Source of the DNA: an uncultured Clostridia bacterium
GTDB lineage: Bacteria; Bacillota; Clostridia; Christensenellales; UBA1242
Assembly: GCA_944362965.1 (NCBI GenBank)
Contig: CALVTR010000004.1
Coordinates: 1 to 43,600 of the forward strand
Length of the DNA stretch: 43,600 nt
Direction of reading: 5' to 3'
Below the pieces are notes generated by a model that was not told where the DNA came from, made no database searches, and saw only the letters and a list, made by a program, of their open reading frames with translations. A program made the position numbers and the translations under genes. This document shows positions 1 through 40,226 of the stretch, one piece after another. The number at the start of each line of letters is the position of its first letter. Within the stretch, counting starts at the first letter, position 1.

Positions 1-608
1 GAACCTACTGTCACATCTGCTGCCTTAACTGACTGTGGATACCATCCAAAGAGAAGATAGTTTCCTTCTGGGTCTGGGTTGCCTTCTGCATCTACTCGTT
101 CGTATGGAGCGGTATATTCACTAAAGGATATTGAGATGCCATTTAAGTCAACACTGCTAGAGCCAGTGAATTGTATTGTTAAAATTATTGTGCCTGAGAT
201 GGCTGCGGTTGTGACGTTTTCTATAGGAGTTTCAGAGCCTGCTATCGTTCCGCTTGTTGATAAAGTTACCCCATTTCCACCTGTAGCTTTTGCTTGATAG
301 GCTGTTGACGTTGTATTTACAAAATCAAAGTATACATTGACTGTGCCACTAGATGAGTGAATTGTTCCTAAATCTATATCAAGCTCACTGTTAATAAAGC
401 CCGGCATAAAATCGTCCATCTGTTCGACTAAGCCAAGTTCTGTTTGAATACGTATATCCTTGATATATAGTGTGTTGTCTGTGATATTAAAACTTACCGT
501 TCCACTTAAATTGATTGTCTGGGTTGCGGCAAGCACTCCAACAAGCAGCATGCTTAGCACAAGCACAAATGCTGAAATCATTGACATAAGTTTGATTTTT
601 AATGACAT
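1..608 (-). CDS. DUF6273-type exported surface protein, N-terminal part (cut by window edge)
   Basis: I read 202 residues from ATG at 608, which follows an AAGGAG ribosome site; the gene runs off the left edge. Residues 1-28 are a hydrophobic export segment beginning MSLKIKLMSMISAFVLVL. The next ~140 residues look like a beta-sandwich rich in Thr, Ser and Asn. At about 186-192 the sequence FGWYPQS resembles the opening of a DUF6273 domain (family recalled, not searched). It is a clear paralog of the complete gene at 37327-39135: both start MSLK-KL, both have GV-AATQ at the end of the signal, and both continue with an SF/FV-D--LY-K--R block. Function is unknown; a cell-surface location is likely. 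Its upstream region carries a cloverleaf palindrome. Confidence 0.75.
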   Translation of the reverse strand, partial: MSLKIKLMSMISAFVLVLSMLLVGVLAATQTINLSGTVSFNITDNTLYIKDIRIQTELGLVEQMDDFMPGFINSELDIDLGTIHSSSGTVNVYFDFVNTTSTAYQAKATGGNGVTLSTSGTIAGSETPIENVTTAAISGTIILTIQFTGSSSVDLNGISISFSEYTAPYERVDAEGNPDPEGNYLLFGWYPQSVKAADVTVG

Positions 609-737: not shown

Positions 738-863
738 CTGTGAGCTTTAGCCCTGCCCAAGAAAACATGCGAATTTTTTAATTCGCATTATGACGCAAAG
801 ACTTTTGCGTCATCAGAAACTCATTCGAGTTTCTGTTTTCTTGGGCAGTGGCTAAAGCCACAG
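738..863. repeat. Nested palindrome A: long outer stem enclosing three hairpins (cloverleaf)
   Basis: Outer arms 738-767 and 834-863 are complementary over about 28 pairs with one bulge on each side (core GCCCAAGAAAA / TTTTCTTGGGC). Between them lie three hairpins almost without gaps: 768-787 (8-bp stem TGCGAATT, loop TTTT), 790-813 (10-bp stem ATGACGCAAA, loop GACT) and 814-835 (9-bp stem CAGAAACTC, loop ATTC). Nearly every base pairs and all three loops are four bases. The same plan recurs at 39818-39932 with almost entirely different sequence. It lies 130 bases upstream of a surface-protein start. Whether it acts as RNA, as extruded DNA or as a mobile element cannot be read from the sequence. 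Confidence 0.9.
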
Positions 864-10483: not shown

Positions 10484-13400
10484 TTAAGCTCTATAATTTC
10501 TATCCCAGCTTAATCTCAATGTGCCAAGTGTTATTAGACCACAATCATCGTCTTCGGTGATGTCTCTATCAGCACCTGAAACTTTCATTCTGATTATGAT
10601 ATTTATATATTGATCATAAGTGAATGAATCATAGAATGTGATAGTTCCGTTCGCTGCGACTTCGGCATTACCAGATGCACCATCTGTTGCATCAAGAGTG
10701 AATGTTAAATAATTTGTATTTATAGTAAGGTCACTTGAAGTGTTAGGTTGAAGATTGCTATTTGCAGGTCGCAAAGTGAATGCATCAGACCAACCGCTAA
10801 GGTATGAAACATAACGTCCGCCGCTAGAAACGCAGGTGATCAAAGGAATTATATCTTGTGCTGTGTATTCACGTTGAAGCGCAAAGTATTTACCGGTTAC
10901 ATAGTAGTTTTTAGAAACTCTGTAGTTAAATGCTGAGCTTGCTGTTCCGCCAAAAGATACACTTACTATATAATATTTTCTTACATTATAGTAGTTTCTA
11001 GCTTCAAGAAGTGATGCATTTTCAACATAGATAACATCGCGAGTTATAGATGCAATCGGTATGGTTATCACCTGATTAGTGCTGCCAGGTGCATACTCAT
11101 AATATCTTACACTGCTTCCACTGTTATATACATAATATATGGTTGAATTAGTATCGCGTCGAACAATTCGTATTGTGTCGTCAACTCTTACATTTGTTCC
11201 TATATATTGAGAAATTGAAATATATTCTGTTCTTGCCCAGCTGTTTCCAGTGTTTGAAATATCGACAATGGCTGGAGTTTCGTTATAAAGTGAGTCACCT
11301 CTATATAGATACATTTCAAAAGTTGTTGATTGACCGCCATTGACGAGGACTTCAAGTGTGTCATTTATATAGGTTACAGAATCTGAAGAGCCAAGTTCGT
11401 CTCCGCCACTTGTTACGCTAAATTCATTGGCTAGAGCGAAGCTTTCGCCATCTCGAACAGGAGCCTGCTCTTCTGCCATGATTGATACTTCTCTTGTGAT
11501 TGTGACATTTACCTTTAAGTCATAGTATTCAACAACACCGTCATTTTCATACATAAGTCTGACAACCATTTGAGCATCTGCTGTGTTGCTATCTTCAAAC
11601 AAATCGGTATCTGTTATACGTGGAACTTGGAATGGATAGTAATCACCTTCATAGCCCGACATACTTGGGTTCATATAAGGCATACGTCCTGTGTCGCCAG
11701 TGCCAAGTCCATTATAGACAGCTTCACCACCATCTGCAGTTTCAAGACCTGTTGTTGTGGCAAGAGTATAGCCTTGTGATGTTGCTGTATGTCTAGTTGG
11801 CTCTATTGCCTCAGCTATAATTGGCTCATCATTCATATCATAGAACATGACTGAATCAACTGTTACATAGGCAAACATTGGAACTTTAAAATATGAGCTA
11901 TCTTCTGTGTATCTTGGCCAATTTCTTATATCATTATTATTTAAAATTTGATATCCGCCGCTTGCTTTTTCAGAAATGCCACCCATACCACTTGGGTCTC
12001 CATTGAATAGGTATGCTTCAATTCCTGTAATCTCTATAAGTTGAACTGTTCCGTCGGTTGCTTCTGGAGAATATGGCAATGCATTGATATAGTATTGTGT
12101 TTGATCATCATTCTCTACTTCTTGAACACTGAGAAGCTCATATTGAACGCCAAAATCAATATATCCAAGTTCTGTTAGAGAAATTGTGCTAGCTTCTATT
12201 CTTGGCTCATCATATGATGACTGCAAGCTGAAGTAAAGGATATATGTGAAACCATATGGGTCAACAGCTTCAATATAATAGTATTGTGTTCCAAATATTA
12301 CTTCTTGTGCTGATGAGAATCTTGTGTTCTGTCCTTCTCGAAGCGTGTATGTTCTATTTGCGCTGCTATAGCTCCATACTGTTGTATTGCCTAAATCACC
12401 ACTCAATTTTTGAGTTACATTTATTGAGTTATTGTATTCAATACCTTCAATAGTGTTGCCCGGAACGCGCATTGTGATTGTGAAGTTTGAGGTTGCAAGT
12501 TCTGCTGAAGTGTTGTCACCATTTGTATGTCTTACTGAAACATAGCCATCTGACGCCGTGCTAGAACTTGTCAATGTGAACGGATTATATATGCTATTAC
12601 CTGTGCTTGTCTCGGTAAGGCTTTCAATGTTGTATATATTGCCCGCATTTGTGATTACATCGCTATTTGTATCACTTTCAACAACATTTCCGCCATAGGT
12701 AACTTGATAATCTGGAACTATTTTGACTACGATATAAAATTCCTTTTCATAGGTCAGTGTTGTGTTTTCTATAGGAACTGAATATGCAAGTCTTGTAAGA
12801 ACATAGTCGCCTTGATTGTCTGCACCAAGTGGGAGCAATCTATAGTCATAAGCATATTGCCCTGCATTTAGGATAGCTGATGAGTATAGGTATATATAAT
12901 GAGTTGTTCCGCTTGAAGATGCTTCTGTTCTGAAACCTTCATCTTCAAAGTTATAATTTGTTATATAGCCATCTAGTGTTGTTTCAAGACTTTCATCTAC
13001 AGTGCTAGACGCATTGCCGATATTATAGTTTACACTCTCAAATGTTAAGCTTGCCTTGCCTTCTCCGAAGTCACCTTCATTTATATATTCCCCTGTTGTT
13101 GGGTGGCGAACACCGAAGAGTTCTACCATGCTTGGAACTTCATAGTTCACTTCTAGTTCAATAAAGTTGTATAGAGTTGAAATCTTCTCTTCAACGTCGA
13201 TATCTATGCTTGGCATGAAGTAATAATTGAGAGAGAAGTTTGTTGTGCTGTAGTTGCTGCCATCATCTTTGTCAAGCTGAGCATCAAATACAGATAAACT
13301 GCTTATTGTATCTAAGGCATAGTTGACAGTTGCTCCGCTTGTGAAATCAAATTCAGCTAGCATGTCGTCATAGTAGCTGTAGGCAACAGGCACGCCATTT

Positions 13401-16400
13401 GAACCACCATAGATGATTTGTATTCTATTTGTAAGAGTTAGATTTGAGAATATTCTCTGATTTGAATCGCTGTTTGTCATTACATTGATATCTTCCCAAT
13501 CTGCATTAAAATACAATGTAGAACCGCTTGAGATTGCCTTTTGGATTAGACCATTTGCTCCCACTGAAAGCAAGTTGCTTTCAAAAGCAGAAACTTCATA
13601 GGTGCCAACATAGACGAAGTCGCTTCCATCTGCATTTGCCATGCTATAGCCAAGATCTAAGTTTGCCATCTGTCCTGCATTGCTTGTGCTGATGTATTGT
13701 GGGTATGATGCATAGAAGTTGACTGTGTTATCTTCTATGTATCCACTTCTCTCGGCAAATACAATATAGTATGAGCCTGTGGCTGAAAGTTCACTGCTAA
13801 ATTCTACGCTTGCCATTCTATTTTGTCCAAATAGGTCTACTGTTGAAGTTTTATCAACATAGAGCGTTTCATAAGTTACGAGTGTGTCTCCATAATTTCC
13901 ACTTGCAATGTTTGCACTTGTATAATTAATTTGAGCCACTAGTGAGTTTGCAAGAATGTGGACTGTATAATCGCATGAAACTTCTTGATATGTTACTCTT
14001 AAAGTTACATAAGATTCATTTCCATTATCGTTAAACGAAACTGAATTATTCTGAGTATTGGACGTCCAAACGCCACGTCTAAATGTGATGCTGCTGTTTG
14101 AATCTATTTCAGAGCTTACAACATAATTTGTGTCGTTTGTATCTGCTCCATTATTTGTTTCATCAGTATAGATGCTTGCGTTTGACAAGGCTATAACTGT
14201 GATTGAGAGTTCTGAAACACTGAATGAGTTTACAAAATCGTTATAAACCGCACTATTACCTGAAATTTCACCTTGCTTGAATGATATTCTATCGAGTGCT
14301 TGGCTTCCTTCAGTTTGGTTAAATACAGGTTTATGTGAAATAAAGTCATTGAGAATATTATCAAAGGTTGCACCATCGTCTAAATATTCTCTTGTGAGTG
14401 CTTCGCCATTAGGAGCAGGATATTTGGCTTCGAGTGATACGCTTCTATATGTGTCAAATGAGTAAGTTATAGTAAATGATTGATATGATACATTTGTAAG
14501 ATTGTCAGCATTTGAATAGTTGAAGTATAGTGTGACTATCATATTCACATCAACATTTGTGTCGCTTGCAATATAATTTGTATGGATTGTTGTGCCTTCT
14601 ATTGATGCAAATGCTGGACTTGAAGATGAGCCGTTATAGACAACGTCTGTGTTATCATAACTATATTTTGCATTAAATATACCATCTTCGTCTATTTCTA
14701 AATCGCTTCCTGCGAGAACAACACCGCCATTTACGCTTGTTCTATACGTTACATTACGTCCAAGTGTTAATTCAACCGTGAATGCAAATATTTGATTTAC
14801 GTAACTATCGCCTGCACTAGTTCTAAATCTGATTGTGAAACTGAGCGTTACATTATAATCTCTGATAAGGTCGGCAACGATAAAGGTTTCATCACTATCA
14901 AATGTCACAAAGTCTGTGCCATCAAAGCCATTTATATCTTGTGATGTGCTTGTCATAGCCTCCAATGTGACATCATATGCATCTCCAGATACAATGTTCT
15001 CTGAGTCATTTAGTCTTATATCAAATACATCTGAGAAGTTATAGGTGTTGCCACCAACAAGGGTATTATTTTCAACTTTTACTTCAAAGCTTGCTGTGGC
15101 TGAAACATTTACAATAAGGGTTGCGAGATAGCCTTGCTCTGTGTAAAGAGTAAACTCTATCTGTCTATCACTTGAAATATAATCTGCAAATGTGATATTA
15201 AATTGCCCTTGATTTGCTTGAGAAGAATCATAGGAATAGCTTGCAACAGCTGAATCTGTGCCAATACCTATCTCTTGCGTTCCTTCTCTTTCTTCTGTCA
15301 TGGCTATTTCAAGTATATCCCATACTTCTGTGTAGCTTTGAGCTGAACCTGAAATATAACCTTCAAGCAATCTTATATCCATAGATATAGTTCTGTCTTC
15401 TGGAATATCTGCTCTAGAAATATCCCAAGTGTATGTTACATTGTTAGAATCGGTTATAACAGGAGACTGCCCTTCTTCTGCAAACCTTACTGAATAGTTG
15501 TAAGAAGTTGTGTTAAGAATGAAGGTGTAATACTGCTCTCCACCAACGACCGCTAAATCGTTATCTTGTGCACCGCCTTGATAGCTGTGTCTGATATTGA
15601 TTGTGATTTGCTCATTTGAGTATGGAGTGTAATACATTTGTGAGTAGTCTTCTGAGAAATATATTCGAACATAATCTGACCAAGTCTCTTCAGTGTAGTA
15701 TGGGTCTTCACCTACAACAACACTTTCAACAACATTAACATAACTTAAGTCTGAGAATACTTCTGTGCCATTGTATGTTATATCACCTTCGCCTGAAATT
15801 ATCTTGATTGTAAGAATATCGCCTGTGGCGATTTCAAAACTTGGAATTGCGTCGTATTCTGCAAATACATCTTCTAGGTCAACAATTTTTTCATCTTCTG
15901 AAATAGTCACAAGTTGAGCTTCTGCTTTAGGCTGATTATCACTATCATATAGAGCTATCCAAGCTTGCATCTCTCTTGTTATATCAACTTGAAGCTCTGT
16001 GATGGTGTCACGTGCTACACTTATTTCTCGACCATTTCCATCATAAGTGATGCTGCCCGAGCCTGATATGCTTCTGATTGTAAATCTATCACCGCTTACA
16101 ATATTATCAAAGTAATCTGCAAGGTCAACTGTTTGGTCTTGCGTTGTGATTGTTATAAGTTGCATCTCACCTTTAGCTTCACCTAAATCATCTGTGAGAG
16201 AAATCATAACCGTCATATCACTTAAAATGTTGACTTTTAGTGTTGTGATAACTTCCCCTTCGCTCTCTACAATCGTTGCACTTCCATTTATTAAGTTACC
16301 ATCGACAAGAGAAATTCTCTTTGTGATATTAAATCTCTTTTGATTTTCATTTAGTGTGGTTGAACCAAATATATAGTCAAGTTCCACCATATTTTCACTA

Positions 16401-19400
16401 CCAATTTCGCTTGTTAAAAATTCCGAGTTTCCATTGTAGCCATATACCGAATCTTCAACGACAACGTCTGGAACAACCTTAAGCACGTAGTAAAATTCAC
16501 GGCTGTCACTTGAATTTGAAATTGTATATCTCAGCGCCAAGTAGAAATTGTCCATTGCAGTTGTTAGGTGGTTAAGATAAAGGTTCCCTACCCTTTCATA
16601 AACTCCATTTCCAACTTGTTCTGATTCTATGGAGATTAATTTCACAATTTCTGAATTTGCTTGAACAGAGCCTGTGGTGTCTATAGGATAATATTGAATA
16701 TTGCTTGTGAGACTTGAATTTGTGATCATGTATAGACCATTTGTTACAGTTTCGCCAAAGGTGTATTCACTTAAAATTTGAGTTACCTGCCCTGCTGTTA
16801 TTGTGTCATAAATGCCATTTTCAATAAGAGTATTTGGGTCGGTCATTGCAGTTGCAAGTTTGTCACTTTCATTAACTCCGCTTGCATAATTTACGTAATC
16901 AAAACCTATTGAAGTGATTATGATAGGCACATACATAACTGCTATACTACCCGGAAATTCAGGTCTTTCTCCACCATTTTCGCTTGCAGAGCCAAAGTAT
17001 ACAACAAGGAAGAGTTGTTCATTGCCAAGCCCTTGAAACAGCCTGTTGCTTGAATTTCTTGTTGTAAGTCTTGTGCCGGTTATTGTTATAGTTCCGCCAT
17101 TTCCATCCTCGACATTGTGTCCTGTGGAGTCATATGTTACGCCAAGATAATTTGAAGTTGACTGAGAATTTCCTGTTGTTGAGTATGTTCTCATATTGCC
17201 ATAGATATTAAAGTTATTTGTTCCTAGTGTTGCAAAATCGTCATTTAAGAACCAAGTGCCTTCTTGCAACATTATATATTCAGTTGAGCCAATATTTTGA
17301 ATTTGTGCTTTGATGCTATAGTCTGAATCATAAGATATTAAGTTTGCAATATACTCATAAAGGTCAAAGTCATCGCCATTTGAATACAATCTTATTTTAA
17401 TTTCAATAGAGCCAAGTTCCACTCTTTCTGTTATAGTGTTGTTTGCACCACGAACTAAATAGTTTATAGTTAGAGTTGTTGAAAGTTCTGTTGTGTTATA
17501 GTCAAACACAAAGAATGAATCATCGCTCTTTGTGACATTGTTATTTTCATAAACTAGATAGTCTGAGAATACATATTCAACATCAATGCCTTCTATAGCT
17601 GTTTCTGCCGCGCTTCCACCCGCTGTTGACATTCTATGCAAGTTTACAAAGTCGGTTATACCAAAATTTGTGCCACTATTCATTATGTAGTATACATTTT
17701 GCAAATCTTCAACAGCAAGGTCACGTGTTACAACAAAACTAATTGTTCGGCTTAAAGTAAAGTTGTTGTCGCCATCAGGTGTGAAGGTTATTGAATAGGT
17801 TTGAGAAGCAACATTCCAAAAATCTGAGAAGATTATTGAGCCTGCTGAGATCAAGTTTCCATTGACCATCGTGTCTTGGGCATAGTAAATTCCTACGTAA
17901 GAAGATGGCATATTAGATTGCAAGATATAATTATTTCCGCTTCTTACAATATAATAAGTTGAAGCACCATCAGCATAGAGCGAAGCAAATGAACTGTCGT
18001 ATTCTTGTGATAAATAGTTAAGGTAATTATTTGTTACTGTGTTCTCAAGCACTAACGCTTCACTTGCATACAAAGTTTCGCCATTATTTGGATAATTCTG
18101 AGATGATAGTGTGATATTTGCCAGAAGTGTTAAGTTTAAGGTTGAACTTATAGCTCCATTTTCACCTGTGTCAGAAATTGAAAATCTTATGATGTAGTCT
18201 ACTGCAAAGTCTTTATTTATCAAAATTCTTGTGATTGTCTGTCCGCTTAGTGCTGTTCTGATTGAAGCAGCGCTGCCATCAAGCCCTGTGATTACACCCG
18301 TCTCATTGTAAAGTGTAAGCATGCCATTTGGTCCAAACAAGTCAATTATCATTTCATCGGTAAGTGTGCTGTCATTGAGATATTGTTGACTGAGTTGAAA
18401 ACGAATGTTGTTATATTGCGTTCTGCTTGCATCTTCTCCAACATAGAACCTTGCAAGTGTATTTAAAGTGATAACGTCTGCACCGCTTGATGATTGAGCA
18501 CCATATTTGCTGACAGAGATATTTGAAATATCGGCTTCTACGAAATTATTATTTACAAATGGGTCGAGAGAAGTTGTGCTATCGGCATAGGTTACGCCAA
18601 CAGATGATATATTTAAAGTTATGCTTTGTCCGTTTGCTATGCTTGTTGCATTGCCATCCAAACTTTCAAGTGCTAGGATTACTTCCGCTCCGCTTGCTTG
18701 TCTGAATGTGAAGGTTTGTCCGTTCAGGTTTATTGCATCACTTGCTCCACTTTCAACAACAAATCTCCAATTCCTAGCAAGAGTGTCTATTCTTTGTTTT
18801 TGGTCTGTTATTGTGACATAACTATTGTCAAGACCTATAAGTCTAGCTAAAAGGTCTGATACGCTTGCGAGTGTGGTATTTCCAAGATTGATAGTTGTAG
18901 TAAAAGCACCGCCTGCATTCAATGTTTGATTCACGTAAATTGTTTCAAGCCCTGTTATAAAGTTTTCATAATCATAAGCTCCATCTGGAACAATTTCAAT
19001 GTCTGTTGCAATAGGACTATATATGCAAATAGGTGTATTAGTTGGAACAGACATTATCCAATCAATATTTTTATCGTCATTATTATTGTAATTTAATATA
19101 AATTGATATATATATATTCCATTTAAAACATCAATACTTACGCCTGTGTTTACACTAAGTTGATATTCTAAAATGCCTTCGCCAGACGCTCCAACAACTG
19201 AGAAATCTCTATTTACTATAGAAAAATATGACGTTACATCTGCACCTTGTGCATTTCTTATTATTAAACTTATATAACCATTGTCATATTCTTCTTGGAA
19301 TACAGACACGGATTCTGCCATTACTCTGAATGACACGCTTATAGTCTGCTGCGCGCCTTGATTTATTGCTATTTCACCATTTATTTCTTGGAAAGCGCTC

Positions 19401-21352
19401 GTATCAATTTCGCCCGCTTGAACTGAATCTTGATAGAGTGATTTTTCGCAAATAACAGTGATATATTCACTACACATCATAGCAATACGATATGTTCTAT
19501 TTCCGCTTTGGTCTTCTTCATAAACAGGAACACCATTTTCTGTTACTATTGTTGCATAATACAGTCTAAATGTTCCGGTATTTTGAAGTGTTATTGAATT
19601 TCCGTTTATTGCAAACAGCATAAGGTTGTCAACATCTGTTGAATAATACCCTGTTAAATCATAGTTATATCCCGTTGGTCCAATAATTGCATCAGCTGTT
19701 GGAACCAAAGTGTTTTTCTCACCTTCGCCAAAGTATGCGAAGAATACATAGTCTTGATAGATATTATCAGTTGGTATTGAAACAAGACTATCTAAATTCA
19801 ATGGATATTGACTGATACTTCCGTCTGCATTATAGTCAAGCATAACTTCAATATCGCTTGAATCAGCCCAAGAAATAGCAGCTTCAGTATGTTCTTCTAC
19901 AGCCAAAGTAAAGTTGTATATCAAAGATGGAGTTCCAAATAGTGAATATGACCCATCTTCATTTTCTATTAAAAGCACAACATTGACTGTAATTTCTGCG
20001 TCTTGTGATGCTAGCAAATCCCAATAGCTGTAGTTTAAATTAGTAACATTTGAATATGGCTTGTAGTAGTAGGTGCCATCAACTTCTACTTGCTGACCAC
20101 CGCGCACTGTAAAGAAGGTGCTATCGCTCTGTGTTGGGTCTTGCTCGTTATATTCAAATGAGAGTGCTATATTTGGAAGCATATTTTCAATAAGAGAACC
20201 TGAAGTTGAATATATATTTACTCCTAAAAATTCAGAATTTAGGTCGTAGAGATATTGGTTTAAATATAATCTCAACGTGCTGTCAGTATTCATTGATACT
20301 GTTGAGCCCGCTTTGCTTACTGTGAAATTATATACACTTGCAGTGCCAATTCTTACATTTAACTGAGATGAAACGTCTGTTGTTGATGTGTAAAGATAGC
20401 CTAAAACTTGTGAATAGAAAAGTTCATCGGCTGAATCTGTGTAAAGATTTTCTGTTGCAATCTGAGTGGCTGCATCCCTAAATGTATAGCCAAACATGGT
20501 TATATTATCAACTGCTTGGTCACCTGCAATGAATGTTACTTCATATCTTCCATCGTATCTTGTTGAAAGATTGCTTGAATCTACATTTATTGCTTGATAA
20601 TATGCATGTTTCACACGTTTATTCTCTTCTGCGATATTGCTGTTTGTGTCATCACTATAAACATACTCACTTTTTGCTGGATAGAAGATTGTGTCAAGAG
20701 TGAATGCCTCGCCCGTTACTATTTGATTTGTTGTTTCTCCCACTGAGTTGATTGCCACTGTTTCAGTCATATAAACAGGCACGTCAACTGCGATTTGTAA
20801 AGTGATTGCACTTATCATATTGTATTCACTTCTTGCCTGCAAAGTGGAGATTCCACCAACAATCCAATCAATAGACTGATTATTTCCGTCTAAGATTTCA
20901 TTTCCTTCACTATCTTCAAGATAGTTGTCTCTTATAAGTCTAACTGTGAAAGGTTGCCCTAAGGTGACATTTTCTGGAACTTGAATAATTCCATTGTCAA
21001 TATACGTGATTCCATCATCACCAACAACTCTGTATGTAACGTTGCTATTTATAAATGAAAGTGTGACTGCCGTTTCTGTGATAGGATTTGTTGGAGTTGT
21101 TATTGTCAAGCTAAAATCGTCAACAACTTCAAGTTGCCCTGTGCTTTCATTATATAAAGATTCATCATAAGAAAAAGCTATTGCTTCTGGATTTATAATT
21201 CGCTCTTCAAAACCGCCTGCAAGATAAACGCCTAGCACTGTTATGCCAGATATAGCGCCTACGCCTGCGATAACGAGTATTAAAGTCAGCCACAGCGGCC
21301 ATTTTTTGCCACTTGTTTTCTTTGCTTTTTTCTCTTTCTTCATTCTTTTCAT
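10484..21352 (-). CDS. Giant N-terminally anchored surface protein, 3622 residues
   Basis: An uninterrupted 10.9-kb gene. A basic cytosolic tail (MKRMKKEKKAKKTSGKK) is followed by one membrane helix at about 18-46; everything after it would be outside the cell. The body is Ser/Thr/Asn/Tyr-rich, acidic, poor in Lys and Cys, with a continuous alternating beta pattern that suggests dozens of Ig-like or other beta-sandwich modules. I found no catalytic motif, no LPXTG and no C-terminal anchor; it ends LSWDRNYRA. Two adjacent modules of ~80 residues are clear duplicates (DNA about 15745-16255). GAGGTG precedes the ATG at 21352. A tethered adhesin, stalk or matrix protein is the best guess. The absence of frameshifts over this length argues that it is under selection. 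Confidence 0.85.
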   Translation of the reverse strand: MKRMKKEKKAKKTSGKKWPLWLTLILVIAGVGAISGITVLGVYLAGGFEERIINPEAIAFSYDESLYNESTGQLEVVDDFSLTITTPTNPITETAVTLSFINSNVTYRVVGDDGITYIDNGIIQVPENVTLGQPFTVRLIRDNYLEDSEGNEILDGNNQSIDWIVGGISTLQARSEYNMISAITLQIAVDVPVYMTETVAINSVGETTNQIVTGEAFTLDTIFYPAKSEYVYSDDTNSNIAEENKRVKHAYYQAINVDSSNLSTRYDGRYEVTFIAGDQAVDNITMFGYTFRDAATQIATENLYTDSADELFYSQVLGYLYTSTTDVSSQLNVRIGTASVYNFTVSKAGSTVSMNTDSTLRLYLNQYLYDLNSEFLGVNIYSTSGSLIENMLPNIALSFEYNEQDPTQSDSTFFTVRGGQQVEVDGTYYYKPYSNVTNLNYSYWDLLASQDAEITVNVVLLIENEDGSYSLFGTPSLIYNFTLAVEEHTEAAISWADSSDIEVMLDYNADGSISQYPLNLDSLVSIPTDNIYQDYVFFAYFGEGEKNTLVPTADAIIGPTGYNYDLTGYYSTDVDNLMLFAINGNSITLQNTGTFRLYYATIVTENGVPVYEEDQSGNRTYRIAMMCSEYITVICEKSLYQDSVQAGEIDTSAFQEINGEIAINQGAQQTISVSFRVMAESVSVFQEEYDNGYISLIIRNAQGADVTSYFSIVNRDFSVVGASGEGILEYQLSVNTGVSIDVLNGIYIYQFILNYNNNDDKNIDWIMSVPTNTPICIYSPIATDIEIVPDGAYDYENFITGLETIYVNQTLNAGGAFTTTINLGNTTLASVSDLLARLIGLDNSYVTITDQKQRIDTLARNWRFVVESGASDAINLNGQTFTFRQASGAEVILALESLDGNATSIANGQSITLNISSVGVTYADSTTSLDPFVNNNFVEADISNISVSKYGAQSSSGADVITLNTLARFYVGEDASRTQYNNIRFQLSQQYLNDSTLTDEMIIDLFGPNGMLTLYNETGVITGLDGSAASIRTALSGQTITRILINKDFAVDYIIRFSISDTGENGAISSTLNLTLLANITLSSQNYPNNGETLYASEALVLENTVTNNYLNYLSQEYDSSFASLYADGASTYYIVRSGNNYILQSNMPSSYVGIYYAQDTMVNGNLISAGSIIFSDFWNVASQTYSITFTPDGDNNFTLSRTISFVVTRDLAVEDLQNVYYIMNSGTNFGITDFVNLHRMSTAGGSAAETAIEGIDVEYVFSDYLVYENNNVTKSDDSFFVFDYNTTELSTTLTINYLVRGANNTITERVELGSIEIKIRLYSNGDDFDLYEYIANLISYDSDYSIKAQIQNIGSTEYIMLQEGTWFLNDDFATLGTNNFNIYGNMRTYSTTGNSQSTSNYLGVTYDSTGHNVEDGNGGTITITGTRLTTRNSSNRLFQGLGNEQLFLVVYFGSASENGGERPEFPGSIAVMYVPIIITSIGFDYVNYASGVNESDKLATAMTDPNTLIENGIYDTITAGQVTQILSEYTFGETVTNGLYMITNSSLTSNIQYYPIDTTGSVQANSEIVKLISIESEQVGNGVYERVGNLYLNHLTTAMDNFYLALRYTISNSSDSREFYYVLKVVPDVVVEDSVYGYNGNSEFLTSEIGSENMVELDYIFGSTTLNENQKRFNITKRISLVDGNLINGSATIVESEGEVITTLKVNILSDMTVMISLTDDLGEAKGEMQLITITTQDQTVDLADYFDNIVSGDRFTIRSISGSGSITYDGNGREISVARDTITELQVDITREMQAWIALYDSDNQPKAEAQLVTISEDEKIVDLEDVFAEYDAIPSFEIATGDILTIKIISGEGDITYNGTEVFSDLSYVNVVESVVVGEDPYYTEETWSDYVRIYFSEDYSQMYYTPYSNEQITINIRHSYQGGAQDNDLAVVGGEQYYTFILNTTSYNYSVRFAEEGQSPVITDSNNVTYTWDISRADIPEDRTISMDIRLLEGYISGSAQSYTEVWDILEIAMTEEREGTQEIGIGTDSAVASYSYDSSQANQGQFNITFADYISSDRQIEFTLYTEQGYLATLIVNVSATASFEVKVENNTLVGGNTYNFSDVFDIRLNDSENIVSGDAYDVTLEAMTSTSQDINGFDGTDFVTFDSDETFIVADLIRDYNVTLSFTIRFRTSAGDSYVNQIFAFTVELTLGRNVTYRTSVNGGVVLAGSDLEIDEDGIFNAKYSYDNTDVVYNGSSSSPAFASIEGTTIHTNYIASDTNVDVNMIVTLYFNYSNADNLTNVSYQSFTITYSFDTYRSVSLEAKYPAPNGEALTREYLDDGATFDNILNDFISHKPVFNQTEGSQALDRISFKQGEISGNSAVYNDFVNSFSVSELSITVIALSNASIYTDETNNGADTNDTNYVVSSEIDSNSSITFRRGVWTSNTQNNSVSFNDNGNESYVTLRVTYQEVSCDYTVHILANSLVAQINYTSANIASGNYGDTLVTYETLYVDKTSTVDLFGQNRMASVEFSSELSATGSYYIVFAERSGYIEDNTVNFYASYPQYISTSNAGQMANLDLGYSMANADGSDFVYVGTYEVSAFESNLLSVGANGLIQKAISSGSTLYFNADWEDINVMTNSDSNQRIFSNLTLTNRIQIIYGGSNGVPVAYSYYDDMLAEFDFTSGATVNYALDTISSLSVFDAQLDKDDGSNYSTTNFSLNYYFMPSIDIDVEEKISTLYNFIELEVNYEVPSMVELFGVRHPTTGEYINEGDFGEGKASLTFESVNYNIGNASSTVDESLETTLDGYITNYNFEDEGFRTEASSSGTTHYIYLYSSAILNAGQYAYDYRLLPLGADNQGDYVLTRLAYSVPIENTTLTYEKEFYIVVKIVPDYQVTYGGNVVESDTNSDVITNAGNIYNIESLTETSTGNSIYNPFTLTSSSTASDGYVSVRHTNGDNTSAELATSNFTITMRVPGNTIEGIEYNNSINVTQKLSGDLGNTTVWSYSSANRTYTLREGQNTRFSSAQEVIFGTQYYYIEAVDPYGFTYILYFSLQSSYDEPRIEASTISLTELGYIDFGVQYELLSVQEVENDDQTQYYINALPYSPEATDGTVQLIEITGIEAYLFNGDPSGMGGISEKASGGYQILNNNDIRNWPRYTEDSSYFKVPMFAYVTVDSVMFYDMNDEPIIAEAIEPTRHTATSQGYTLATTTGLETADGGEAVYNGLGTGDTGRMPYMNPSMSGYEGDYYPFQVPRITDTDLFEDSNTADAQMVVRLMYENDGVVEYYDLKVNVTITREVSIMAEEQAPVRDGESFALANEFSVTSGGDELGSSDSVTYINDTLEVLVNGGQSTTFEMYLYRGDSLYNETPAIVDISNTGNSWARTEYISISQYIGTNVRVDDTIRIVRRDTNSTIYYVYNSGSSVRYYEYAPGSTNQVITIPIASITRDVIYVENASLLEARNYYNVRKYYIVSVSFGGTASSAFNYRVSKNYYVTGKYFALQREYTAQDIIPLITCVSSGGRYVSYLSGWSDAFTLRPANSNLQPNTSSDLTINTNYLTFTLDATDGASGNAEVAANGTITFYDSFTYDQYINIIIRMKVSGADRDITEDDDCGLITLGTLRLSWDRNYRA
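15745..16255 (-). repeat. Tandemly duplicated ~80-residue module inside the giant protein
   Basis: Copy 1 contains TLKVNILSDMTVMISL, then QLITITTQDQTVDLADYF, then RSISGSGSITYDGNG. Copy 2 contains ELQVDITREMQAWIAL, then QLVTISEDEKIVDLEDVF, then KIISGEGDITYNGTE. The order and spacing match, with roughly 45% identity by eye. Confidence 0.8.
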
Positions 21353-37290: not shown

Positions 37291-37344
37291 TTCAAATTTT
37301 CTTTGGGTTTTGGGAAAATTCGGGGTCTATATCGAAAATTTGAA
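37291..37344. repeat. Inverted repeat spanning the 3' end of the DUF6273-type gene
   Basis: Eleven-bp perfect arms TTCAAATTTTC (37291-37301) and GAAAATTTGAA (37334-37344) with 32 bases between. One arm lies inside the last codons, the other beyond the stop at 37327. There is no T-run, so it is not an ordinary terminator. Confidence 0.7.
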
Positions 37345-39135
37345 AGCTGCTCGAGCCGCGTGACTGTGGAAGTCGACAAAATCGAAATTGAGAAAACCCG
37401 AAGTATCAACAATATAAGCAAAAACACTAAAAACCGAATTAGGCGAACGGAGCCAATAGTAGTTAGCTGAACCTGTTGGCCATACTCTTCCACTATCACT
37501 GTCTATTGTGCTGCTTCCGCCTGTTAGTTGATATACTTCATAGTATGATAACAGCCAAAAGGCATCTTCGTGCCCTTCTTGATAGTACTCATCTCCGTCT
37601 TTTAAGTCTGATGGATAGGTTACGTCGTTTGGATTTGTTGTCGAGTTTGTATTATCTTTATATAACTCCCCGAGCGACCTTGCCACTATTTTTTCGTATA
37701 CTAAGTCATTTGTTGTATCAATGTTTAAATCATCATACATATTAGATTCTCTTCCATCTGGCTCGTATGTATATGGGTATGTTGATGTACCACTTGGGTT
37801 TTTATAAGCATCATAAGAATCAACGCCATTGATGTACCTTCGAACATTACTTGTTGCGTAGTCATTGGCGTTGATGCTTGTCCACTCTGCTTTCGTTTGA
37901 TGTCCTGCTCTTGCACTTGTTCTTGTCCAATCATTATTGAATGATACTTCTATCATATTGTTTGTGCCGTCTCTGCCTATGGCTGAAAGTACGTTTGTTT
38001 CTAGATAGAAATAACCTTTGCCTGTTGGAGTAGTGTCTGCATCAAAGGTTGTATATTTTGTTGCTACGTCACTGCCGCTGCTGTCGTCTACTGATGCGAT
38101 ATATTTCCAGCGGATGTATTCACTTTGTGTCTGTCCCATCACTGTGCCCATTTCTACATACCAATATTTATTCTCGGTGTCTTTTTGAAGCAAGCTTTCT
38201 TTCTCTTCAAAGGATACCTTGAGTCCTGAGATTGTCTTTGCTGAGCTTGTGTTGTTATTTACATAGATTGTAAGGTCTTTACTTTCTCCGCTTGATAACT
38301 CTCCGCTTGAGTTTTGTGGTAGATACAAGCTTGTTGAGTGAACAAAGAGTGTTCCACTTGTGCCTGTGGTGTTATAGTTAACTGTTCCTGAGTCGTAGCT
38401 TACTATGTTCTTTATATATTTTGCACTTAGTGATGTCATGGAAATTGTAAGGGTTGTTTCACCTGTTGCAAACTCTATGCCTGACAAATCTACAGAGCCG
38501 TCTATTGCTACTCCACCTGCAAGGTCTGTATATGTATCTGTTGTTGCTCCACTTGATGACACCGATGTCACTTGAACAGCTGCGTCTATATATTCGTCTA
38601 TTGTTATAACTATTCCTTCAAGGTTGACGGAACTAGAGTTTGGTGCGGTGATGGTTAAGATAAGAGAGCCGTCGATTGGTGTGTTTGCGTCAAAGTTTTT
38701 ATAACCATCACTATCTGTGTCAGTCAAATCATTTGTTGGTATAATTCCGCTATAGCTTGCTGATACCCCTGCACTTGTTAAAGCAGTAGGCAGTTCTACG
38801 TCCACTATTGCCCACTGGATATCTGTTGTATTGATTATATCAAAATACAATGCAAAGGAGCCGTGAGCGTTTTCTTCTGTTTCTAAAGCCGTCAAATCCA
38901 TATTAAAGCTTCCGTTTATGTAGCCCGGAGTGAAACTTTCAATATCAACCGCTTCACCGCCCGCTTCTTGATATCTTACATTTTTCACATACAAGCTTTT
39001 ATCTGGGACTACAAAGCTTAAATTCCCTTGCATGCTTATTTGCTGTTGCGTTGCCGCAAATACGCCTATAACTAGCACTCCTAGCATAAGCATAAATAAT
39101 GAAATACATGATATTAGTTTTACTTTTAATGACAT
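37327..39135 (-). CDS. DUF6273-type exported surface protein (complete)
   Basis: 602 residues, ATG at 39135 after AAGGAGG. Export segment at about 6-28 (ISLFMLMLGVLVIGVFAATQ). The first ~310 residues are Ser/Thr-rich beta-sandwich-like modules. The C-terminal ~280 residues match a DUF6273-like domain (recalled): YWYVEMGTVMG, EYIRWKYIAS, then FWLLSYYEVYQLTG and the terminal block WLRSPNS ... ARAAFKFSI. That ending resembles C-type-lectin folds displayed by diversity-generating retroelements. The codons after WLRSP are almost all NNT/NNC and poor in A. No sorting motif or second membrane segment. A paralog begins at 608. Function unknown; display or ligand binding at the surface is likely. Confidence 0.8.
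   Translation of the reverse strand: MSLKVKLISCISLFMLMLGVLVIGVFAATQQQISMQGNLSFVVPDKSLYVKNVRYQEAGGEAVDIESFTPGYINGSFNMDLTALETEENAHGSFALYFDIINTTDIQWAIVDVELPTALTSAGVSASYSGIIPTNDLTDTDSDGYKNFDANTPIDGSLILTITAPNSSSVNLEGIVITIDEYIDAAVQVTSVSSSGATTDTYTDLAGGVAIDGSVDLSGIEFATGETTLTISMTSLSAKYIKNIVSYDSGTVNYNTTGTSGTLFVHSTSLYLPQNSSGELSSGESKDLTIYVNNNTSSAKTISGLKVSFEEKESLLQKDTENKYWYVEMGTVMGQTQSEYIRWKYIASVDDSSGSDVATKYTTFDADTTPTGKGYFYLETNVLSAIGRDGTNNMIEVSFNNDWTRTSARAGHQTKAEWTSINANDYATSNVRRYINGVDSYDAYKNPSGTSTYPYTYEPDGRESNMYDDLNIDTTNDLVYEKIVARSLGELYKDNTNSTTNPNDVTYPSDLKDGDEYYQEGHEDAFWLLSYYEVYQLTGGSSTIDSDSGRVWPTGSANYYWLRSPNSVFSVFAYIVDTSGFLNFDFVDFHSHAARAAFKFSI
37360..37440 (-). other. Candidate hypervariable (DGR-like) codon tract
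   Basis: These are the 27 codons between the WLRSP motif and the terminal AARAAFKFSI. Twenty-five end in T or C; the other two are TCG. The coding strand has 14 A and 39 T out of 81. Residues are Phe, Val, Asp, His, Ser, Tyr, Ile and Asn in alternation with fixed Gly, Ala and Ser. This is what adenine-directed mutagenesis of AAT/AAC codons would leave. No template copy or reverse transcriptase is in the window. Confidence 0.45.
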
Positions 39136-39443: not shown

Positions 39444-39783
39444 GTGGATTATCCACTTTCCATCGTCTACTATTTCTATAATGCCGAGTTTATCAGTTCT
39501 GGTATGTGGATAACTTTTACCTTATGTGGATAAATTTTTGCTCCCTTTTCACCACTTTTATTCAATTTCCCGCTTTCGCGGTTGGCAGTAAGATACAATA
39601 TTATTATCTACTAAAGATACCTTATTATACCCCCCCCGCAACCTACGTCAAGCAAATTTAACAAATTTTTTAAAATTTTTTGAAAAATTTGTGGCTTAGC
39701 CACTTTTTATCGAGTGTTTTAGGCACTTTCTATCGTAAACTTTTATTAATTTACAATTTTTTTAGTCCGCCTTATGTGGATAA
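39444..39783. other. DnaA-box cluster, candidate replication origin
   Basis: Three perfect DnaA boxes (TTATCCACA on the minus strand) lie at 39505-39513, 39525-39533 and 39775-39783; the first two start exactly 20 bases apart. A fourth, TTATCCACT (one mismatch), lies in the opposite orientation at 39449-39457 within a 13-bp palindrome (39444-39456). The motif CACTTTNNATCG occurs three times (39454, 39701, 39724). AT-rich DNA lies to the left (39290-39410) and inside (39655-39690). Genes diverge from this region. dnaA and dnaN are not adjacent, so the origin assignment is an inference. Confidence 0.6.
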
Positions 39784-39817
39784 CTTACTGGGGTAACACC
39801 AAAGTTTCTCACTTAAA

Positions 39818-39932
39818 CTTCTTTGACACGGGCAAGCGAATGGGTGATTTTTTCTGAAGAAAAAATCACGATAGGCAAATGCCTATCAAAAACTCAAGAG
39901 AGTTTTCCATTCGCTTGCCCGTGTCAAAGAAG
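39818..39932. repeat. Nested palindrome B: perfect 26-bp outer stem enclosing three hairpins (cloverleaf)
   Basis: Outer arms 39818-39843 and 39907-39932 are perfectly complementary (core ACACGGGCAAGCGAATGG). Inside, with only one unpaired base between elements, are 39844-39869 (11-bp stem GTGATTTTTTC, loop TGAA), 39870-39887 (7-bp stem GATAGGC, loop AAAT) and 39889-39906 (7-bp stem AAAACTC, loop AAGA). All three loops are four bases. The architecture equals element A at 738-863. The only evident shared sequence is the third hairpin, AAACTC-NNNN-GAGTTT. It lies just beyond the last DnaA box. Confidence 0.95.
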
Positions 39933-39954
39933 GTCTGTGTTTTCAATTCAACTT

Positions 39955-40135
39955 GCCGGATAGTCGCCATGCATTTGGCTTGAAAGCGGAGATAAAATTT
40001 ATTTTAAACTCACCCTGCCGGACAATCGCCAAACTTTTGGTTTGGAGAGCGGAGATAAGGTCTGCATTTTCAATTCAAGCCGTCGGACATTCGCCGAGCG
40101 TTAGGCTCGCGGACAGTCGTCGAACATTTGGTTCG
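39955..40135 (+). repeat. Four imperfect hairpin repeats of ~28 bases
   Basis: Units at 39955-39982, 40017-40045, 40082-40109 and 40109-40135 follow the pattern CGGACANTCGCC + small hairpin (for example CGAAC-ATTT-GGTTCG, CGAGC-GTTA-GGCTCG, CCAAAC-TTTT-GGTTTGG). The stem bases change together between units. Two flanks are also repeated: GCGGAGATAA after units 1 and 2, and AAGGTCTG--TTTTCAATTCAA before units 1 and 3. The pattern starts right after palindrome B. Confidence 0.8.
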
Positions 40136-40226
40136 TGACAAATTACAACGATATTAAAAAGATTTCGACAATTTATGGCTATATAATGCTTTTTAACTAT
40201 TTTAAATATATGATAAAATTTAACTT

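Follow-up and report, generated by a model that had tools for sequence, protein, structure and literature searches.

A cloverleaf palindrome upstream of a predicted secreted protein gene

The window analysed here, 43,600 nucleotides in full, comprises bases 1-43600 of contig 4 of a 1.37-Mb draft genome that is 98% complete. Near its right end, on the minus strand, lies a gene at 37327..39135 for a predicted secreted protein of 602 amino acids with the N-terminus MSLKVKLISCISLFMLMLGVLVIGVFAATQQQ; no Pfam or NCBIfam match was found for its product. The start of this gene is 681 bp from a 115-base palindrome at 39818-39932, which lies upstream of it. A perfect 26-bp outer stem encloses three contiguous tetraloop hairpins. 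The left arm (39818..39843, given on the plus strand like all parts of the element) and the right arm (39907..39932) are 26 nt each, 100% complementary and 63 nt apart. Hairpin 1 (39844..39869) reads GTGATTTTTTC(TGAA)GAAAAAATCAC and has 11 bp, hairpin 2 (39870..39887) is GATAGGC(AAAT)GCCTATC with 7 bp, and hairpin 3 (39889..39906) is AAAACTC(AAGA)GAGTTTT, also with 7 bp; all three are supported by the fold and by covariation. A single base, 39888, is left unpaired between hairpins 2 and 3. Arm complementarity and fold thus bear out the original prediction, which had described a perfect 26-bp stem and three tetraloop hairpins with about one spare base. Its statement that the structure is far beyond chance holds as well. 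The fold energy is -54.1 kcal/mol as DNA (z -16.6) and -80.9 kcal/mol as RNA (z -15.9), and in each case 0 of 200 shuffles folded as well.

A second paralog of the secreted protein gene, cut by the window edge, occupies 1..608 on the minus strand. Another cloverleaf, which belongs to a different sequence family (F3), is found at 751..850 (plus strand), 143 bp upstream of this gene, which starts at 608. It is presumably the element that had been called palindrome A. The window also contains a 3622-aa open reading frame at 10484-21352.

Other repeats surround the 39818-39932 cloverleaf. Small imperfect hairpin repeats adjoin it at 39950..40140 (plus strand), and similar repeats flank other copies. 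They have a fixed frame and variable stems and possibly form a second class of repeats kept for structure. To the left of the cloverleaf, three perfect TGTGGATAA sites of the DnaA-box type are located in intergenic DNA at 39505, 39525 and 39775. Because similar TTATCC motifs also occur in the flanks of some other cloverleaf copies, these sites may be part of repeat modules rather than the mark of an origin.

A sequence family within a wider class of shape

A sequence search of the own genome with the element recovered, besides itself, 13 further copies spread over nine contigs as well as a partial match. All 15 matches fold as three hairpins within an outer stem. We call this home sequence family CAT1. 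Its alignment holds 16 copies, two of them from another genome; the inner arms, GCAAGCGAA..TTCGCTTGC, are invariant while the hairpins vary with paired changes. Nine pairs changed on both sides, as compared to 2.9 in shuffles, and 98.2% of the cells of the alignment are paired as compared to 33-52% in slid controls.

Descriptors free of sequence were then used at several settings. The strict one (outer stem of at least 14 bp, inner part of 40-160 nt, at least 70% paired) leaves the number of hairpins open. In 261 kb of the own genome, picked around sequence relatives of the element, it found 20 elements, all 20 with three hairpins, against 0 in 2.61 Mb of dinucleotide shuffles. The structure-only search that had been proposed as a check therefore finds such folds far above the shuffled rate. 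In 100 kb of the own genome picked for neither elements nor paralogs the same descriptor gave 2 elements, and in 387 kb from 20 relatives it gave none. With the lax descriptor (stem of at least 10 bp, at least 62% paired, three hairpins required), 57 elements were found in 445 kb sampled from the own genome, as compared to 2 in 1.34 Mb of shuffles. Six lax matches in the 387 kb of relatives count against the explanation that we favor below.

The number of branches was counted without any filter on it (stem of at least 11 bp, inner part at least 70% paired) in the own genome, the sister species G127, G025 and 11 further genomes; the G127 sample included 17 stretches that had not been picked for elements, although one of these (L280) was already known to contain a match. 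This count gave 87 elements with three branches, 5 with two and 0 with four or more. Five plain long hairpins and 4 interrupted stems around three hairpins were also seen.

The element at 39818-39932 is thus a member of a class with dozens of members, which goes beyond the original prediction. Members are roughly 85-135 bp long and intergenic. As judged by reading the 57 lax places, they form at least four multi-copy families plus singletons, and their sequences differ widely. The CAT1 covariance model recognizes many members of other families, which makes a distant kinship between some of them probable. Of 87 elements, 74 have one to three spare bases, and 230 of their 261 hairpins close with a loop of three or four bases; like the G-U, mismatch, T-run and gene-gap counts given below, these were made on elements pre-filtered for three hairpins and carry no information on branch number. 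Tetraloop flips were too few for any claim (3 reverse-complement pairs versus 105 others). Overall, the class is better recognized by shape than by letters.

Cloverleaves precede a family of surface-protein paralogs

A search of the own genome with the MSLKVKLISCISLFMLMLGVLVIGVFAATQQQ N-terminus yielded 32 matches, which represent 31 starts when a split copy is counted once. BspA-type leucine-rich repeats (PF13306) were found in 4 of the 7 paralog proteins scanned. One paralog (L136:6605-8563) scored above the cut-off of TIGR02167, a model of PARCEL-repeat surface proteins, and another (L145:11266-12780) below it. The copy near 9538 of L140 (C2:80538) has in-frame stops soon after the signal peptide and is a broken copy.

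A cloverleaf was found within 1.5 kb upstream of 29 of the 31 starts, and for the two remaining starts the contig ends after only 996 and 166 bp. Fifteen of the 29 are in stretches picked around CAT1 copies; among the 16 starts that were not so picked, 14 have a cloverleaf. C1:70705 and C1:71499 share one element, which for the first of them lies beyond the second start, and without it the count is 28 of 31. The elements of C9:54762 and C8:26624 were found only by the covariance model or at a laxer setting. As a comparison, own stretches picked for neither elements nor paralogs gave 4 elements in 100 kb with the lax descriptor. The distance from cloverleaf to gene ranges from 34 to about 1200 bp.

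G025 likewise has cloverleaves, with other sequences, ahead of such paralog genes. The paralogs themselves are present in only 13 of 101 genomes of the genus that were searched. No cloverleaf was found at 25 sampled paralog loci of 11 other genus genomes, about 19 of these loci being covered for roughly 1 kb or farther upstream, showing that the link to the gene is not general.

Pairing in the cloverleaves is almost exclusively Watson-Crick

Could the elements act as structured RNAs, that is, as 5′ or 3′ untranslated elements that stabilize, terminate or regulate transcripts? The predicted RNA fold is extremely stable, and many elements away from paralogs lie 20-150 bp past a stop codon. Gaps between convergent genes are also weakly enriched among the elements away from paralogs (8 of 32 gaps versus 18 of 144, p 0.07), a lean which makes a role at 3′ ends possible. 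However, G-U pairs are almost absent whichever strand is read. In the inner hairpins of 57 elements, the 1552 pairs of one strand include 8 G-U pairs and the 1558 of the other include 18 (0.5% and 1.2%). Ten tRNAs from this genome have 30 in 245 (12%), and shuffled inner sequences have 112 in 961. Runs of T after the stem occur at 32 of 172 ends of 86 elements against 18.4% in the control, which is background. The orientation of CAT1 relative to the paralogs is mixed as well, 3 one way and 7 the other, with the copies 260-1183 bp upstream of the paralog start and, in the window, within a divergent gap. A role as RNA, one of the options first raised for the element, is thus disfavored and appears quite improbable.

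Known RNA classes were rejected too. With T-runs at background, the elements do not qualify as intrinsic terminators, as had been stated at the outset. The window had no Rfam match at gathering score and no tRNA by ARAGORN, which excludes a tRNA or another Rfam family and agrees with the earlier statement that the element is no T-box. From the comparison with a tRNA made in the original prediction, only the four-way shape stands. A lax Rfam search of 39780-39970 gave 30 matches, mostly to miRNA models and far below their cut-offs.

In the outer stems and hairpins of 37 elements, 1581 pairs are Watson-Crick and single mismatches number 10, among them three G-T and two A-C; in this count the outer stems had been found through exact seeds, the inner hairpins had not. 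From its sequence, then, the fold looks like one of DNA rather than of RNA.

In two families the center is found in both orientations

Centers were compared between loci with closely related flanks. The F4 copies L144:10315-10404 and L135:9492-9579 have flanks that are 97% and 95% identical over 100 bp on each side. When the L135 center is turned, 87 of its 88 bases align to L144 at 94% identity, whereas unturned only 71 align, with gaps, at 92%; the local scores are 71.5 and 27, respectively. In CAT1, L142 and L141 have flanks 91-97% identical to those of L143, and their centers match at 93-94% one way and at 82-84% the other. L137, also of CAT1, behaves like L143 in the orientation of its center.

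A study in yeast reports homogenized arms and inverted spacers as outcomes of replication template switching at inverted repeats (PMC8604942). The perfect arms and inverted centers seen here correspond to these reported marks. Perfect arms can come from template switching alone, without any function. Together, the strict Watson-Crick arms and the inverted centers suggest that folding takes place in DNA inside the cell. Among the possibilities proposed originally, an extruded cruciform or a structure on single-stranded DNA is accordingly the one favored by the comparison.

An inverted center flanked by inverted arms, upstream of surface genes, also recalls an inverton, in which a recombinase would flip the center and switch the neighboring gene, as has been reported for the gene cwpV in Clostridioides difficile. 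The genome does have recombinases, with 7 matches to the tyrosine and 1 to the serine type. The cwpV switch is an inverton near a surface-protein gene, and the resemblance lies in inverted repeats that bound an invertible stretch near such a gene (PMC2784873). In contrast with cwpV, no orientation-dependent signal was seen here and the multi-hairpin center folds identically either way. Further, the distance to the gene varies, and with arms that differ between families a common site is not apparent. The two orientations with matching flanks come from a comparison of paralogous loci inside a single genome rather than from a population. We consider this explanation very unlikely, the least probable of those discussed.

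Element sites are shared with a sister species

The sister species G127 (including CALVPQ010000014.1 and CALVPQ010000038.1) was compared with the own genome at 66 non-overlapping intergenic sites with the same flanking gene pairs. Ten of these sites have an element in both species, 2 in the own genome only, 0 in G127 only and 54 in neither. G127 therefore has an element at 10 of 12 own element sites and at 0 of 54 element-free sites (Fisher 3e-10). The count uses 20 larger stretches and a single species pair. Exclusion of four stretches in which a match was already known gave 8, 2, 0 and 41 (8 of 10 versus 0 of 41; 7e-8), in agreement with the full recount. These figures supersede a first table of 78 rows, which had overlapping sites and nine small loci fetched for holding elements.

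By eye, the cloverleaves of the two species differ in sequence at some of the shared sites. In the nine orthologous pairs that could be aligned, 310 stem pairs are identical, 14 changed on both sides, 8 changed to G-T, 15 are broken and 28 gapped; the pairs changed to G-T, broken or gapped count against structural constraint. Among the unpaired bases, 82 are the same, 44 different and 12 gapped. The elements might be a neutral by-product, palindromes kept perfect by template switching and tolerated between genes, and template switching by itself does yield arm identity and spacer inversion (PMC8604942). This would leave the constant branch number of three unexplained. In the same nine alignable pairs, moreover, 310 of 347 aligned stem pairs are unchanged, as compared to 82 of 126 aligned unpaired bases and an average of about 82% of the aligned bases in the flanks. 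We thus hold a purely neutral origin to be rather improbable.

In both species a CAT1 copy (L137:496-585 in the own genome, L243:1500-1598 in the sister) is found near the same gene cluster, which from reading the sequences we take to be rpmH/rnpA. The rpmH/rnpA cluster is often close to the replication origin.

In other species, five loci could be placed. An element lies beside the same gene in two of them (G092 and G022) and is absent from three. The G092 element is of the same family with changed hairpins and is also found in G127; that of G022 has an unrelated sequence. L297 and L295 share their site with the own genome and G127. L296 (G126), considered as a common site, was rejected on comparison of the neighbors, and L298 and L299 are likewise not common sites; L293 and L294 could not be placed. 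The G098 element adjoins a gene 72% identical to the neighbor of the own C1:71785.

A search of 60 relatives with the DNA sequence of the element found none. Covariance models gave matches in at least 5 of 112 genus genomes in one scan and at least 9 of 112 in another, at least 12 in union, lower bounds because 29-40 candidates were scored per genome. The descriptor adds G025, G081 and G008, and G028 at a laxer setting. In an order-wide draw of 151 genomes, again with 29-40 candidates scored in each, only the own genome had a covariance match. No match to the element was found in phage and plasmid collections; one viral contig fitting the arm pattern was rejected since it does not fold as a cloverleaf. 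Over genome contigs the arm pattern is too loose, returning at least 109 stretches, and among those listed just two, L075 and L078 of a single genome, represent this element as judged from their folds. Chitinophaga silvatica has a long hairpin repeat of its own, present in many copies and unrelated to the element, with arms close to ATAAGGATCGAAGCGAATGT (L027, L030, L050 and others).

Comparison with known repeats and mobile elements

Integron attC sites are single imperfect hairpins with extrahelical bases, and a folded DNA strand is their working form. The cloverleaves resemble them in that structure is kept while sequence varies, and differ in having three hairpins within an outer stem; a cassette array was not noticed here either. 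The terminal repeat of a parvovirus (AAV) has an outer stem, two inner hairpins and a 'flip/flop' interior, and forms the end of a linear genome. Outer stem, inner hairpins and a flipping interior are common to both; here, however, there are three inner hairpins and the element is inside a bacterial chromosome.

ERIC is a bacterial MITE. Nezha and EFAR belong to the same category (PMC3733652). Like these three, the cloverleaves are of the order of 100 bp and intergenic, and they have long terminal inverted repeats, namely the 26-bp perfect arms. Unlike in MITEs, the interior is fully hairpinned and its sequence turns over, with no parent transposon identified and, in an unsystematic assessment, no target duplication either. 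REP and REPIN elements go with RAYT transposases (PMC3116915, PMC3733652). REPINs, too, are inverted repeats scattered between genes that show compensatory changes, and they have been depicted with a 'clover' fold (PMC3116915). In contrast to REP/REPIN, three hairpins stand here inside a long outer stem, there are several sequence families, and sites are common to two species.

Miniature mobile elements of the REP/REPIN or MITE kind, mobilized by a transposase that works on folded single strands and with no cellular role, would account for multi-copy families at different sites and for the long inverted ends. The compensatory changes and proposed 'clover' fold of REPINs speak for them as well (PMC3116915). 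Against this, the RAYT (Y1/IS200-like) transposase model PF01797 had 0 matches in the own genome, 98% complete, while the control was positive in 5 of 14 genomes, which leads us to reject REPs driven by RAYT. Home-family alignments inspected by eye had neither a conserved GTAG nor a CGTC tag next to the palindrome. In the sampled own stretches, a search with three arm patterns turned up no empty palindromic target. The element sites common to the sister species argue against mobility. The earlier idea of a transposase substrate therefore finds no support, and such an origin seems unlikely. No sign of a decayed insertion-sequence end appeared in the sequence and fold comparisons made here.

Loss of the hairpin nuclease SbcCD was rejected as a cause. 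A single weak SbcD-like match (E 7.5e-14, under the curated cut-off) is present in the own genome, and relatives are alike, 27 of 41 showing a match, so that the character is not discriminating.

In the literature searched, which left most subscription papers outside, no description of such a cloverleaf class was found. A published survey that covered inverted repeats in 118,019 genomes describes arms as generally conserved and spacers as variable; the word cloverleaf is absent from its main text (PMC13155455).

A class of four-way-junction palindromes probably under structural constraint

Taken together, the interpretation in the original prediction is partly supported. The most probable explanation, in our view, is a genus-restricted class of intergenic DNA four-way-junction palindromes, each strand of which can fold into an almost perfect junction of an outer stem and nearly always three hairpins, kept under structural constraint. 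It builds on what can be read from the sequences, that is, the fold, the copy number, the variety of letters at constant shape, the strictness of Watson-Crick pairing, the inversion of centers and the sharing of sites. Since sequence, orientation and distance to the gene vary while branch number and site are largely constant, we infer that the shape is the feature that is kept.

In such a mechanism, the structure would form as DNA in the cell, either by extrusion of a cruciform or where the DNA is single-stranded at the fork. Switching of the polymerase between arms as templates would keep the arms perfect and flip the center. The four-way shape, not the letters, would be retained because a putative junction-recognizing factor acts there. 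Upstream of the surface-protein paralogs, the elements would serve as structural hot spots for the exchange of upstream modules or for modulation of expression, which is the most likely role and the weakest step of the proposal. Recombination among the upstream regions of surface genes and insulation of gene borders may both be considered as candidate roles.

A bolder version, which we regard as unlikely, is that the genome encodes dozens of Holliday-junction mimics, in which a freed strand would fold into a four-way junction irrespective of its sequence. Junction-processing enzymes or a dedicated reader would use them as fixed sites to steer recombination of surface genes and, elsewhere, to mark gene borders. 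Branch number would then be under selection, as three hairpins and an outer stem make a four-way junction and two or four hairpins do not, and the sequence would be free to turn over by template switching.

Conservation of shape at shared chromosomal sites while letters turn over would make these elements a natural test-bed for selection on non-B DNA in bacteria. Watson-Crick-only pairing and inverted centers would provide marks, readable in sequence, of a DNA fold in cells. Should the elements direct exchange between surface-protein genes, a structural trigger would join the modes of surface variation already known in bacteria.
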